Part shown: piece after piece, positions 12,015 through 17,244 of the stretch
How the letters are laid out: each line of letters begins with the position of its first letter
How positions within the stretch are numbered: the stretch's first letter is position 1
NCBI GenBank assembly: GCA_026706025.1
Contig: JAPOZO010000061.1
Span: 1 to 55,461, forward strand
DNA from: Candidatus Poribacteria bacterium
GTDB lineage: Bacteria > Poribacteria > WGA-4E > WGA-3G
Length of the DNA: 55,461 bases
Direction: 5' to 3'
Notes under the pieces: generated by a model
What the model was told of the DNA's origin: nothing
Databases searched by the model: none
The model's input: the letters and a program-made list of their open reading frames with translations, nothing else
Position numbers and translations under genes: made by a program

Positions 12015-13217
12015 ATGCTAAGTGTTGATGAAGCCCGCCAACGGATGTTAGATACCATTCCGGTTTTATCCTCGGAAAAGCGCGGAATTCTTGCGTGTAC
12101 GGGCTATGTCCTTGCCGAGGCACTGCGTGCTACAGAAAATATCCCGCCATTTGACAATTCAGCGATGGATGGATATGCCGTTCGCGCAGCCGATGTCCGA
12201 AACGCTTCCGAGAAGAATCCTGCCGTGCTTTCAGTTGTAGAGATGATCGCAGCGGGGTATGCCCCAACAAAACAGGTTGCAGCCGGGCAAGCGTCGCGAA
12301 TCATGACGGGCGCGATGATGCCTGACGGTGCCGATGCCGTCGTTATGCAAGAGGTGACGCAGCAAGAAGCCAATGAAGTCAAGATCTTTGAAAGTATTGA
12401 CACAGCTGGAAATGTCCGTTTTACCGGCGAGAGTGTCGCAGAAGGGCAGCAAGTGATGGGAAAGGGGAAGCATCTGCGTCCGCCAGAGGTCTCAATGCTT
12501 GCCTCTCTCAATTGCGCGGAAGCTACAGTCCATCGGAAACCTACCGTTGCGATTGTTTCGACAGGTGATGAACTCACACGGCTTGGTGAACCACTTGAAC
12601 CGGGAAAAATTCGGGACAGCAACCGTTATGGGCTTTATGCGCAAGTTGAAGAAGCAGGCGGTATACCCATTGATATGGGCATCGCACCTGATGATGCAGC
12701 AGAGACGGAGCGAATCTTTCGGGCTGCGCTCGCGAAGGCGGATGCGCTTATTACAAGTGGTGGGGTCTCTGTCGGTGAGCACGACGTGGTGAAAACTGTG
12801 TTGGCAAAGTTAGGTGAGATTAACTTCTGGCGCGTCGCAATGAAACCCGGAAAACCGCAGGCTTACGGGATCGCTGACGGAAGACCTATTTTCGGATTGC
12901 CCGGGAACCCCGTCTCTTCGCTTGTTGTGTTTGAACTCTTTGTCCGACCTGCACTCCTGAAAATGGCGGGACATACACATCTATTGCGTCCAACCTTCAA
13001 AGCCGTCTTAGCGGAATCTGTCACGAATAGAGATGGTCGTGTTAATTATATGCGTGCAATCCTCAAAGTGTCTGACGGAGAAATCACTGCACAAACAACG
13101 GGGCCCCAGGGGTCAGGTATTCTGCATTCGCTTGTGCTGGCAAACGGTTTAATTACGATTCCAACGGCGACAACGCTACAAGCTGGCGAAAAAGTGGATG
13201 CCCAATTTCTGTTCTAA
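12015..13217 (+). CDS. moeA: Molybdopterin molybdenumtransferase MoeA
   Basis: Inserts molybdate into adenylylated molybdopterin, the last common step of molybdenum cofactor synthesis, in the cytoplasm. The 400-residue length is typical. Hallmarks in order are IPPFDNSAMDGYAV, GAMMPDGADAVVMQE, STGDEL, RDSNRYGL, TSGGVSVGEHD, MKPGKPQAYG and GLPGNPVSS, covering MoeA domains I to IV. AAAGGAG stands 9 bases before the ATG. Other cofactor genes are absent from the window, so it appears to be separate from a moa cluster. The next gene starts 22 bases after its stop and may be co-transcribed. Confidence 0.96.
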   Translation: MLSVDEARQRMLDTIPVLSSEKRGILACTGYVLAEALRATENIPPFDNSAMDGYAVRAADVRNASEKNPAVLSVVEMIAAGYAPTKQVAAGQASRIMTGAMMPDGADAVVMQEVTQQEANEVKIFESIDTAGNVRFTGESVAEGQQVMGKGKHLRPPEVSMLASLNCAEATVHRKPTVAIVSTGDELTRLGEPLEPGKIRDSNRYGLYAQVEEAGGIPIDMGIAPDDAAETERIFRAALAKADALITSGGVSVGEHDVVKTVLAKLGEINFWRVAMKPGKPQAYGIADGRPIFGLPGNPVSSLVVFELFVRPALLKMAGHTHLLRPTFKAVLAESVTNRDGRVNYMRAILKVSDGEITAQTTGPQGSGILHSLVLANGLITIPTATTLQAGEKVDAQFLF

Positions 13218-13239
13218 ACACGGCACTAAGGAGCTTGCC

Positions 13240-14085
13240 ATGATTGTAGACACCCATGTACATGTCTGGGAAATCGATCCTCCGAGATACCCTGTCGGTC
13301 CCACAGCACCGAGTTGGAATTCGTATCCTGATGAACCCGGTACCGCTGATGAACTCTTGGCAGAGATGAATACACACGGTGTAGACTGGACGGTGTTGGT
13401 GCAAACGAGTTGGTCGACTTGGGATAACGGTTACATCGCAGATTCGGTAGAACGGTTTCCAGACCGATTCATCGGACACGGATTAATCGATCCACAGGAT
13501 CCGAACAACGCCGAGCAGGTCCGCTATTGGATAAAGGACCGGGGTTTGGTAGGTTTTCGCTTCCATCCGATGTACTATCCTGATGAAAAGATATTGCTAA
13601 CCGAACAGAACGGTCCAATGTGGGAAGAGATTGCGGTTCTGGACGCGATCCTCCAATTTCACCTTCGCGCTGCGTTCGCAGATCAAGTCGCTGTTATTGC
13701 GCAACAGTATCCACATCTGACGCTTATCCTTGATCACATGGGGTACCCACAGATAGATGCCGACGCTGCAGCGTTTCAACCCATCGTGGACCTCGCGCAA
13801 TACGACAATGTCCATTTCAAGTTATCGGATGTGGCTGGACGTTCACATCAAGAGTTTCCATATACAGACGTGCACCCGTTCATCCAAAAATTGCTCTCAG
13901 CTTTCGGTGCAGGACGGACAGTATGGGGAACAGGTTACCCCGGGCATCACAGACAAAAACACGATTGGCCCTCTTTAGAACAGGAGCTCAGGCTCATTGA
14001 GGAAGGACTTCCGTTCCTAACAGATAAGGACAAGGAACAGATTCTCGGTGGAACAGCCGAGAGAATATGGAATCTGGCACCATAA
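13240..14085 (+). CDS. Amidohydrolase-family metal-dependent hydrolase
   Basis: A 281-residue TIM-barrel hydrolase of the amidohydrolase-2 type (lactonases, decarboxylases and similar). It shows DTHVHVW at the N-terminus, GFRFHPMYYP, LILDHMGYP, and VWGTGYPG near the C-terminus. The family's usual GSDYP is here GTGYP, so the catalytic Asp position is Gly; the activity may be altered or supplied by another residue. The start was chosen because AAGGAG lies 7 bases upstream; an upstream frame overlapping moeA by 20 bases lacks one. The substrate cannot be deduced. Confidence 0.85.
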   Translation: MIVDTHVHVWEIDPPRYPVGPTAPSWNSYPDEPGTADELLAEMNTHGVDWTVLVQTSWSTWDNGYIADSVERFPDRFIGHGLIDPQDPNNAEQVRYWIKDRGLVGFRFHPMYYPDEKILLTEQNGPMWEEIAVLDAILQFHLRAAFADQVAVIAQQYPHLTLILDHMGYPQIDADAAAFQPIVDLAQYDNVHFKLSDVAGRSHQEFPYTDVHPFIQKLLSAFGAGRTVWGTGYPGHHRQKHDWPSLEQELRLIEEGLPFLTDKDKEQILGGTAERIWNLAP

Positions 14086-14128
14086 AGTCGTTTTCCTTGG
14101 TGCTATTTCCTATTGGACTCACACAACC

Positions 14129-14887
14129 ATGGTAACAATGACTATGCCGTGGGGAGAGATGGCTTATCATGATTCTGGAAGTCGGATGCCTCCGTTACTT
14201 TTCTTACACGGCACCGGGTGTGACGCGTCAGATTGGATACCGGTGACTAAAAACTTAGCGCGTAACCAGCGTTGCATCGCACTCGATTTTCGTGGGCATG
14301 GACAGAGCAGCGTGCCGACACAACCCCTTACATTAGGTAGCCTTGCTGAAGATGTCGGGCACCTTGCAAATCATTTGGGGTTCCACGAATTAGTGATTGT
14401 TGGGCATAGCCTGGGTGGTATGGTTGCAATGGAAGTTGCGCGGCGTTCATCTTCTGTTGTCGGGCTTGTTTTGCTGGAGGGCTGGAGCAGTCTTTCCTCA
14501 GCGGGAAGTGCGTTTGACGCTGGACGGTTTTATGGTTCGCTATCACAGACAACGATTACGCAAATTCAGCGGAAGGCTGAAGCAACACGAAGCCGCTTCC
14601 AAGCTGAAATCTGGCACGATTTCTGGGAGTCTGTCAAAGATTTTGATGCTTACACCTACCTACAGCGTGCAGGCATCGCTATCTTGGAGGTTTTTGGCGG
14701 TATGGGACGGAATGATTTAACTGAACAGCAGCTGCACATTCCGCCCAATCCGAATATTCAATGGGTATGGGTCCCGAACGCTGGACATTACCTCCCGCAT
14801 GAATGTCCAATTGAAGTTGCCAAAGTAATAGGCGCACTCCGTCGGCATTTTAAACCCCCTAAATCCCCCTTATCAGGGGGACTTTAA
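14129..14887 (+). CDS. Alpha/beta hydrolase
   Basis: A 252-residue alpha/beta-hydrolase fold enzyme: oxyanion-loop HGTGCDASDW, DFRGHGQSS, nucleophile elbow GHSLGGM, a later Asp (about GRNDL) and NAGHYLPHE carrying the catalytic His. Substrate unknown. No strong ribosome binding site exists; the ATG at 14129 is the first good candidate. The last residues (HFKPPKSPLSGGL) and the stop are encoded by a MITE-A core, so the element rewrote the C-terminus. A MITE-A end-like GGACTCACACA (14115-14125) sits just before the start codon. Confidence 0.82.
   Translation: MVTMTMPWGEMAYHDSGSRMPPLLFLHGTGCDASDWIPVTKNLARNQRCIALDFRGHGQSSVPTQPLTLGSLAEDVGHLANHLGFHELVIVGHSLGGMVAMEVARRSSSVVGLVLLEGWSSLSSAGSAFDAGRFYGSLSQTTITQIQRKAEATRSRFQAEIWHDFWESVKDFDAYTYLQRAGIAILEVFGGMGRNDLTEQQLHIPPNPNIQWVWVPNAGHYLPHECPIEVAKVIGALRRHFKPPKSPLSGGL
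14853..14887. repeat. MITE-A core supplying a gene 3' end
   Basis: The palindromic core (CCCCCTTATCAGGGGG with flanking AAACCCCCTAAAT and ACTTTAAG) matches the cores at 27400-27435, 33519-33553, 46771-46806 and 48708-48745. A degenerate right end TGCCGTAACCC follows at 14891-14901. It lies in the convergent junction with the rhodanese gene. Confidence 0.7.
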
Positions 14888-14901: not shown

Positions 14902-15738
14902 TTAACCTTCAGGAATCTCGACCGGCAGATCCAGCCGGTCACCCCACTCTTTCCACGAACCTATGTAGTTACTGACTTTCGGGTATCCCAAAAGTCGCAA
15001 CGCCAAATAGGTTTGCGAAGAGCGGTATCCGCCCTGTCAGTAGCACATGACTTGCTTTTCGGGGGTAATACCCACTGCCGCATACATCTCTCGGAGTTCA
15101 TCAGCAGTTTTGAAAGCCCCGGCTTCATCAAGATTATTCAGCCACTCGATGTGAATAGAACCCGGAATCGCACCTGCTCGTTCTGCGCGAGCCACCCTGC
15201 CGTAATGTTCATCGTCCGTTCGAGTGTCAAGCGGCACAAAATCTTCTCGGTTTAAGAGGACATGAATCACATCGGCATCCATGTGCGTGTCGCGCTGTGC
15301 ATTTATCTCGAAAGGCAGCACCTCTGGTGGTTCAGCCCCCTCCGTACTAATCGGTCCTTCTGCGGCGAGCCATGCTCTGAAACCGCCATCGAGTAAACGG
15401 GTATCGGAATGTCCGAGGTACTCACAGAACCAAAGTCCACGTGATGCCCTTGTCCCAGAAATGTCTTCATACCATACAATCGGCTTTGTCGGGTCAAGCC
15501 CGCGTTGCTGAAACAGGTACGCCATCATCCACATAAAGGCATCAAAGGTCTCTTTGCGAGTATCGATGAGGCTCAAACCGAACAGATCTAAATGAAGTGC
15601 ACCGGGAATATGTCCGCGAATATATTCATAAGTCGGCCGCGTATCGACGATGCAGAATTTTCCATCATTGAGTGTCCGTTTCAATTCATCAGCAGAGATC
15701 ACCAGGTGTGGGTTTTCGTAGCCTTTATAGGCTTCCAT
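14902..15738 (-). CDS. Tandem-rhodanese sulfurtransferase with in-frame TGA at the catalytic cysteine (candidate selenoprotein)
   Basis: A thiosulfate/3-mercaptopyruvate-type sulfurtransferase with two rhodanese domains. A plain reading stops at TGA (15037-15039) after 233 residues ending VMCY. Reading through gives [18 protein letters not shown], a GSWKEWGD motif and a TAA at 14902, for 278 residues, the usual family length. The TGA is exactly where the family has its active-site Cys (as in HCQTHHRS of Azotobacter RhdA), so selenocysteine at residue 234 is the simplest explanation. A loss-of-function Cys-to-stop change is the alternative. The post-TGA part is intact, with conserved Arg and no other stops. 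GAAGGAG lies 10 bases before the ATG. The N-terminal domain carries [16 protein letters not shown]. Confidence 0.82.
14996..15036 (-). promoter_or_regulatory. Possible bacterial SECIS hairpin(s) after the TGA
   Basis: Immediately after the TGA an AGGGCGG/CCGCTCT stem (one G-U pair) closes an ATA loop (15035-15019). A second stem CGCAA/TTGCG (15017-15013 with 15000-14996) encloses a 12-base loop whose G residues are about 30 bases from the TGA. Bacterial SECIS elements lie in this place, but the match to a loop-G consensus is not convincing by eye. Confidence 0.35.
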
Positions 15739-15870: not shown

Positions 15871-17244
15871 TTACACTGTTTTCGGCTTCTTTTTAATTAA
15901 CTTGATTGTCTTCCACTTTCCAATACGATACCAAAACCACATAGCGATCCCTTGGACGACATTTGAGAGAGCGATCCCTAACCAAACGCCGTTCAGTCCG
16001 ATGAAGTGCGAAAGTAGAATTACAAGTCCGAGACCGACACCGACCTGTGCGGCAAGCGTAATTACCATCGGGGAGAAGGTATCCCCAGCCCCATTGAGTG
16101 CTCGCCCTAAAATGAGTGAAAATGCGATAAATCCGAATGTCGGAGACAGGAACCGCAGATAGACGATACCGGTTTCAATCACATCTGTCTCGGCTGTGAA
16201 AATCCGAATGAAAATTTGCGGGAAAGCGAGAAAAACGGCCCCGATCACCGCCATAATTACGGCACCTAACAGGTTCGCAACACGTGTCGATTTTTCAGCG
16301 CGTTCTATCTGGTTCGCCCCTAAATTTTGTCCGACTAAGGGAACGACTGCGTTCGCAATGCCGAAGCCGGGGTTCATTACCAGAATCCGAAGTCGCATAC
16401 AAATCGTATATGCGGCAACGACAGTTTTGCCATAAGGTCCGATGACCCATAGGAAACCGAGTCGCGAAATGTGTCGCCAAAACCCTTGCATAGAACTATA
16501 AACGCCGAGCCGTAAAATGTCAAGCATTTCTACGAGGTCTACCTGATACTGAACGCGCCGGAGCGAAACAGGGGCCCGTCCACTCCAACAGAGATAGAGT
16601 AGGATCACTACACCCGCGCCGCGTCCGATAAGTGTTGCATACGCCGAACCTGCTACCCCCAATTTTGGGAATCCCCATAAGCCGAAAATTAACAACGGGT
16701 CGAGTGTGATGTTAATCAGTGTTGAGAAGATGAGAACAACCATCGGGGTGATGGTATCACCACCAGCCCGGAAGATAGAGCCGAGGGTCATTGACACGAA
16801 CATTGTACTAATACCGACGAGAATGATATGCATGTAAGTGGTGCCGAGCCTTAATACCTCTGGATCTGTCATTCTCACAGCAAGCAATCCTTGTTCCGCC
16901 AACGGATAACCGACGAGCGTGACACCGATGGAAAAGAGAACCGCTAACAGGATTGACTGCATCGTGATATGCTCGGCTTGGGCGAGGTTTCTTGCACCTA
17001 AATACTGTGCGACCATAATCCCTGCACCTGTTGAAATTCCGAGCGAGAAGACCCCGATTAACCGGATTAAGTTCCCACTTACGCCAACAGCCGCTATCGC
17101 ACCTGCTCCAAGTCTTCCAACAAAGATCATATCAACGATGTTAAACGCTTCTTGGAGAATGTAACTGAGTATTATGGGTCCTGCAAGCCGTAGTAAATGC
17201 CCCAGAAGACTCCCTCGGGTTAGGTCGCCCCGTGCTTTTTTCAT
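15871..17244 (-). CDS. MATE-family efflux transporter
   Basis: A 457-residue inner-membrane protein with about 12 hydrophobic segments in two repeated halves. Features typical of MATE (multidrug and toxic compound extrusion) exporters include GPIILSYILQEAFNIVDMIFVGRLG at the start of half one (first helix with the conserved Pro) and VVPLVGQNLGANQ in half two. It expels organic cations or similar compounds by Na+ or H+ exchange. No clear ribosome binding site precedes the ATG. The C-terminal tail is Lys-rich. The substrate is unknown. Confidence 0.9.
   Translation of the reverse strand: MKKARGDLTRGSLLGHLLRLAGPIILSYILQEAFNIVDMIFVGRLGAGAIAAVGVSGNLIRLIGVFSLGISTGAGIMVAQYLGARNLAQAEHITMQSILLAVLFSIGVTLVGYPLAEQGLLAVRMTDPEVLRLGTTYMHIILVGISTMFVSMTLGSIFRAGGDTITPMVVLIFSTLINITLDPLLIFGLWGFPKLGVAGSAYATLIGRGAGVVILLYLCWSGRAPVSLRRVQYQVDLVEMLDILRLGVYSSMQGFWRHISRLGFLWVIGPYGKTVVAAYTICMRLRILVMNPGFGIANAVVPLVGQNLGANQIERAEKSTRVANLLGAVIMAVIGAVFLAFPQIFIRIFTAETDVIETGIVYLRFLSPTFGFIAFSLILGRALNGAGDTFSPMVITLAAQVGVGLGLVILLSHFIGLNGVWLGIALSNVVQGIAMWFWYRIGKWKTIKLIKKKPKTV

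Follow-up and report, generated by a model that had tools for sequence, protein, structure and literature searches.

A rhodanese gene of Candidatus Poribacteria with UGA at the catalytic cysteine codon and a candidate SECIS hairpin about 100 nt downstream

Described rhodanese selenoproteins and the gene under study

Rhodanese selenoproteins of COG2897 have been catalogued since 2005, with Sargasso Sea and GOS data among the sources (PMC1088965, PMC2398784), and bSECIS predictions for representatives of the group were included in the 2005 paper (PMC1088965). In a 2026 review, the COG2897/cd01449 rhodanese-related sulfurtransferases are listed as 'form 4', with the motif UxxG (PMC13188914). According to the bacterial SECIS model outlined there, the loop lies 16–37 nt after the UGA and carries a G at position one or two, the stem is 4–16 bp and the loop 3–9 nt long, and the free energy is ≤ −7.5 kcal/mol (PMC13188914). 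The 16–37 nt spacing rule is the basis of bacterial SECIS prediction. Reviews mention selenoprotein genes that fail the SECIS model and do not state how their signal is built (PMC13188914); bSECISearch misses 13% of known genes (PMC12013277). Our literature search retrieved no account of a bacterial SECIS that is distal or bridged by a helix.

The gene described here lies in a 55,461-nt stretch of DNA, referred to as the window, from a sponge-associated Candidatus Poribacteria genome (6.27 Mb, 103 contigs), which was also searched. Its coordinates (14902–15738) had been placed correctly in the preliminary description (Table 1). Read directly from the sequence, the gene consists of ATG, 233 codons, TGA, 44 sense codons, and TAA, and a Shine-Dalgarno-like AGAAGGAG is found upstream of the ATG. 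Two stretches of the read-through protein matched PF00581 (Rhodanese, 124 bits) in Pfam, showing that tandem rhodanese domains are present. When aligned to solved rhodaneses, the read-through protein was collinear with Azotobacter RhdA (1e0c) over 11–275, and the TGA at codon 234 fell on the second-domain loop Cys of 1e0c ('THCQTHHRSG'), 1uar, and 3aax, which is the catalytic Cys of rhodaneses. This alignment agrees with the preliminary description, in which a single in-frame TGA had been assigned to the catalytic Cys of the second rhodanese domain.

Table 1. Window positions of the rhodanese gene and of the features assigned to its proposed RNA element
Feature	Position	Strand	Details
Rhodanese CDS	15738..14902	minus	two-domain sulfurtransferase (putative function), 278 sense codons, one TGA very probably read as Sec
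In-frame TGA, codon 234	15039..15037	minus	catalytic Cys column, motif MCY-U-QGGYRSS
TAA stop of the rhodanese gene	14904..14902	minus	
Helix A and the 82-nt domain closed by it	14944..15025	minus	all alignment cells paired in helix A (100%)
Hairpin B, proposed SelB-binding SECIS	14920..14940	minus	nt 100–106/114–120, GAYCGGC-UGGAUYU-GCCGRUY
Whole proposed SECIS element	14917..15039	minus	covariance model R1

The protein shares with RhdA (1e0c) and 1uar two rhodanese domains, collinearity over nearly the full length, and a catalytic residue in the same loop, but that residue is Cys in the solved enzymes, and their active loop reads CQTHHR or CRIAER versus UQGGYR here. The latter differs from both CGSGVT and the classic CRKGVT, and the sulfurtransferase function is putative. 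With the COG2897/cd01449 selenoproteins, it shares Sec in place of Cys in a rhodanese-related sulfurtransferase, and U-Q-G-G fits UxxG; the comparison is by description only, and neither Poribacteria nor a distal element is mentioned in the available parts of those papers. The enzyme is a further member of this already known rhodanese selenoprotein group.

A MATE efflux gene (15871–17244, minus strand) lies upstream of the rhodanese gene on the same strand, and alpha/beta-hydrolase, amidohydrolase-like, and moeA genes (12015–14887, plus strand) flank it at the opposite end. In many relatives, homologues of these genes are located near the rhodanese copy. The same genome also contains a Cys-type two-domain rhodanese paralogue (YCRIGERSSHTW; L211, G000:C95:127481-128308), which is 31% identical and was found in most relatives.

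Conservation of the TGA codon and the selenocysteine machinery

A rhodanese orthologue (E < 1e-60) was detected in 70 of the 85 genomes of the phylum. Exactly one internal stop, TGA, always in the context Y-TGA-QGG, was present in all 67 orthologues of full length in the Sec clade, which represent 67 genomes of several genera and 66 distinct sequences; one more TGA copy is a contig-end fragment (G046). Since the same sole TGA is found in all 67 full-length orthologues, it is not due to chance, as had been argued in the preliminary description against a random nonsense mutation. One in-frame stop could suggest a nonsense mutation, a pseudogene, or a sequencing error, but this reading is already refuted and keeps practically no probability: the same TGA is shared by 67 genomes of several genera, none has a second stop, and the downstream protein is constrained. 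Downstream of the TGA, the amino acids hardly vary, but the codons of L249, G251, V255, G260, and S261 are free at synonymous sites, so the tail is translated. The tail had been described earlier as intact, which held, and as 45 codons long, which did not, the number of sense codons after the TGA being 44.

At the column of the TGA, TGC or TGT was found in three Poribacteria of the sister family f3 (L062, L063, L064), and Cys was encoded in relatives from Deltaproteobacteria/Binatia and Vicinamibacteria (~50% identity) and from Nitrosocaldales archaea (35–38% identity). The column comprised 67 TGA and 4 TGC/TGT codons in one set and 58 TGA and 22 TGC/TGT codons in the named collection; the alternation of Cys and TGA considered in the preliminary description is thus present among the homologues. 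On a FastTree phylogeny, parsimony placed Cys at the root and gave one change, from Cys to TGA. The three f3 genomes retain selA and a TGA-containing selD, and tRNA-Sec was also seen in two of them; having kept Sec machinery genes together with a Cys rhodanese, they offer a natural Sec/Cys comparison. A special CxU redox pair with the Cys at position −2 was considered and rejected, as much of f4 has Ser at this position and Cys homologues also have Cys there.

All components of the Sec machinery named in the preliminary description are encoded in the genome. The profile search of the genome yielded selA (604 bits) and selB (353 bits, with SelB winged-helix domains); tRNA-Sec (78 bits, anticodon TCA (UCA)) directly adjoins selB, and selD (360 bits) has its own in-frame TGA at the active site (Sec-type). 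Among 60 relatives, selA was above the curated cut-off in 51 and tRNA-Sec in 52. The selA of one relative (G052:C45:3723-5078) contains one in-frame TAA and is a pseudogene or an assembly error. Poribacteria selD is a selenoprotein gene (CAG-U-ASKL and variants), in which stems and loops differ between families. One in-frame TGA was also found in fdhA of the genome studied (formate dehydrogenase alpha subunit; L213, G000:C56:206372-208372, minus strand).

Stop-codon readthrough can be stimulated by downstream RNA structures, and UGA with C next is a leaky context. Both points would suit a UGA that is read by a near-cognate tRNA, or reassigned, with the aid of the downstream structure and with no Sec inserted. 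Such an explanation is very improbable, as the UGA stands exactly at the catalytic Cys with Cys as the sole alternative seen, and the complete Sec pathway is accompanied by two further TGA selenoprotein genes (selD and fdhA). UGA is, moreover, a genuine terminator in 6 of the rhodanese orthologues, so it has not been reassigned wholesale.

Sec is by far the best reading of codon 234, because the TGA column is conserved, Sec and Cys are exchanged at it, UGA is not reassigned wholesale, and the tail is translated; on these sequence comparisons, the reading is strongly supported. The preliminary description went too far in calling Sec the only possible reading without the corresponding tests, but its conclusion stands: a Sec-containing rhodanese is supported by the machinery, by the Cys/TGA alternation, and by an RNA structure that goes with the UGA form.

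Canonical SECIS search and the distal RNA element

RNA positions were numbered with the U of the UGA as nt 1, so that nt n corresponds to window position 15040 − n. No hairpin with 16–37 nt spacing and within the energy limit of the model was found in any of the 67 TGA sequences, and ensemble sampling with bulges allowed likewise yielded zero SECIS hairpins at 16–37 nt in them. As positive controls, the Poribacteria selD hairpins and the fdhA hairpin of this genome were recovered by the same search. The fdhA SECIS is canonical (CGUUGCC-GGUCU-GGCAGCG, 18 nt from the TGA), as is the selD hairpin of the same genome (17-nt spacing); Poribacteria selD hairpins (L098, L180-L209) mostly have a spacing of 16–17 nt, and several miss the energy limit. 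A SECIS had been expected at 14990–15040 in the preliminary description; none is present there, and the conserved structure is larger, with a SECIS-like loop 103 nt from the UGA. Rfam gave no match in the window. The tandem hairpins in a 70-nt fold of the window sequence (z −3.95) were rejected, as they are not common to relatives.

In the conserved structure, nt 15–23 (15025..15017) pair with nt 87–96 (14953..14944) as helix A, with A88 bulged, and nt 39–43 pair with nt 68–72 as an inner helix C (91% paired). The loop of hairpin B, UGGAUYU, is located 103 nt after the UGA in 66/67 sequences; one sequence (L094) has a mismatch in the hairpin B stem. Helix A and hairpin B are common to all 66 distinct TGA sequences. 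In the sequences displayed, hairpin B has a free energy between roughly −10 and −14 kcal/mol, and the hairpin follows the bSECIS rules for stem, loop, G position, and energy in 66/67 and departs from the spacing rule. It is absent from every Cys orthologue. Across the 6.27-Mb genome, covariance model R1 matched only the rhodanese gene strongly. Two other exact matches to the hairpin B core in the genome, one of them within a ribosomal protein gene, look like chance. A kissing interaction of the loop UGGAU with AUCCA in the rod was also dismissed, being broken in many members of the alignment as judged by eye.

Like canonical bSECIS elements, hairpin B carries a G at loop position one or two and has a free energy below −7.5 kcal/mol in 66/67 sequences. 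The fdhA loop of the same genome, GGUCU, is similar to the hairpin B loop, (U)GGAUYU, and forms part of AGGUCU in E. coli fdhF. Unlike the canonical elements (E. coli fdhF, and selD and fdhA of this genome), hairpin B lies 103 nt rather than 16–37 nt from the UGA, with a long-range helix between.

Sec could also be inserted with the help of the 82-nt rod, or of a short hairpin directly after the UGA, acting as the SECIS, hairpin B then serving pausing or mRNA stability. The rod starts 11 nt past the UGA and pairing in helix A is fully preserved, and a hairpin of nt 2–23, which includes the UGA, was the first choice of the RNAalifold consensus. This hairpin was rejected, however, since its mean probability was 0.03 in the fold of the full region and its variable pair 9–17 was unpaired in 14% of the sequences (pair fraction 0.86). 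No hairpin at 16–37 nt with a G at loop position one or two was seen within the energy limit in any of the 67 sequences, and the hairpin B loop is almost invariant in TGA forms and lost in Cys forms. An SECIS of this kind is unlikely.

Several measures argue for helix A and hairpin B as RNA structures. Within the gene, synonymous diversity is lowest in codons 261–277 and 238–248; these two regions pair with each other as helix A, and codons 261–277 also make hairpin B. In TGA forms, the codons of S240 (TCT), K263 (AAA), L269 (CTG), and P272 (CCG) are invariant, and R268 is CGG wherever it is Arg (66 sequences). Against synonymous shuffles in which the protein and its codon usage were preserved, the folding z-score of nt 15–120 was on average −4.95 in TGA forms (below −2 in 66/67) and +0.31 in the 22 Cys forms. 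When nt 1–13 were held open to mimic mRNA within the ribosome, the mean probability of helix A and hairpin B was 0.999, each exceeding 0.5 in 66/66 TGA sequences; under the same constraint, the probability in Cys forms was 0.00 in 22/22 for hairpin B and 0–0.36 for helix A. Among 720 synonymous shuffles, helix A formed in 69, hairpin B in 18, and both in 5.

Pair 18–93, both positions of which are synonymous third positions, is C-G in 50 sequences, U-A in 13, and U-G in 4, with no mismatches, and covaries (Fisher p 9e-11, with no correction for shared descent); on the tree, it has changed at least 5 times on the 5′ side and at least 6 times on the 3′ side. Pair 102–118 is C-G in 57 and U-A in 9 of the 66 distinct sequences, which reflects one event on the tree. 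The observed pairing or covariation score was reached by none of 500 shuffles in the structure count, and slid registers gave far less pairing than the actual one. The measures counting pairs and pair types were not above shuffles, because so few pairs vary: as most of the helix sequence is invariant, covariation can rest on three or four pairs only, with relatedness controlled only in part.

In Sec forms, residue 269 (window 14932–14934) is without exception Leu, encoded by CTG. Cys forms from Poribacteria and from other bacteria (L156-L170) have His, Thr, Asp, Glu, Ala, or Leu there, and the choice of amino acid in Sec forms may be set by the RNA hairpin.

Proposed mechanism and significance

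We propose that the catalytic Cys of a two-domain thiosulfate-sulfurtransferase-like rhodanese has been replaced by UGA-encoded Sec, and that SelB loaded with Sec-tRNA would bind the UGGAUYU loop of hairpin B near the 3′ end of the gene. We infer this binding from the likeness of the loop to the fdhA and fdhF hairpins and from its absence in Cys forms. Helix A, which begins 11 nt past the UGA, about at the ribosomal mRNA entry, would fold out the intervening 82 nt, so that the hairpin B loop would lie 11 + 3 + 7 = 21 nt from the UGA. Because helix A removes 82 nt from the strand path, the loop would fall within the normal 16–37 nt range. SelB would then deliver Sec at the UGA, and the selenol would presumably serve as the nucleophile that carries the sulfur, as in a thiosulfate sulfurtransferase, as suggested by the family. 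Judged from the sequences compared, the gene likely encodes a Sec rhodanese selenoprotein whose UGA is served by distal hairpin B via helix A, with the hairpin as the predicted SelB target. It is also probable that the element represents a new bSECIS architecture, in which a putative SelB hairpin stands about 100 nt downstream and a long-range helix folds out 82 nt of the coding region and brings the hairpin within working range, fixed throughout one poribacterial clade and gained with the Cys-to-Sec switch.

In a sponge metagenome, SelA and SelB co-occurred in most symbiont bins and were missing from most close reference genomes (PMC5649159). Their distribution in sponge symbionts agrees with Sec having a function in sponges. 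If the proposed architecture is true, a distal hairpin with a fold-out helix would be one concrete answer for the genes that fail the SECIS model, and would give a search rule for missed selenoproteins. It would also test which distance matters to SelB, that along the strand or that in space. It would moreover mean a coding sequence dictated by RNA, as for L269 (CTG), which is fixed in Sec forms and free in Cys forms.
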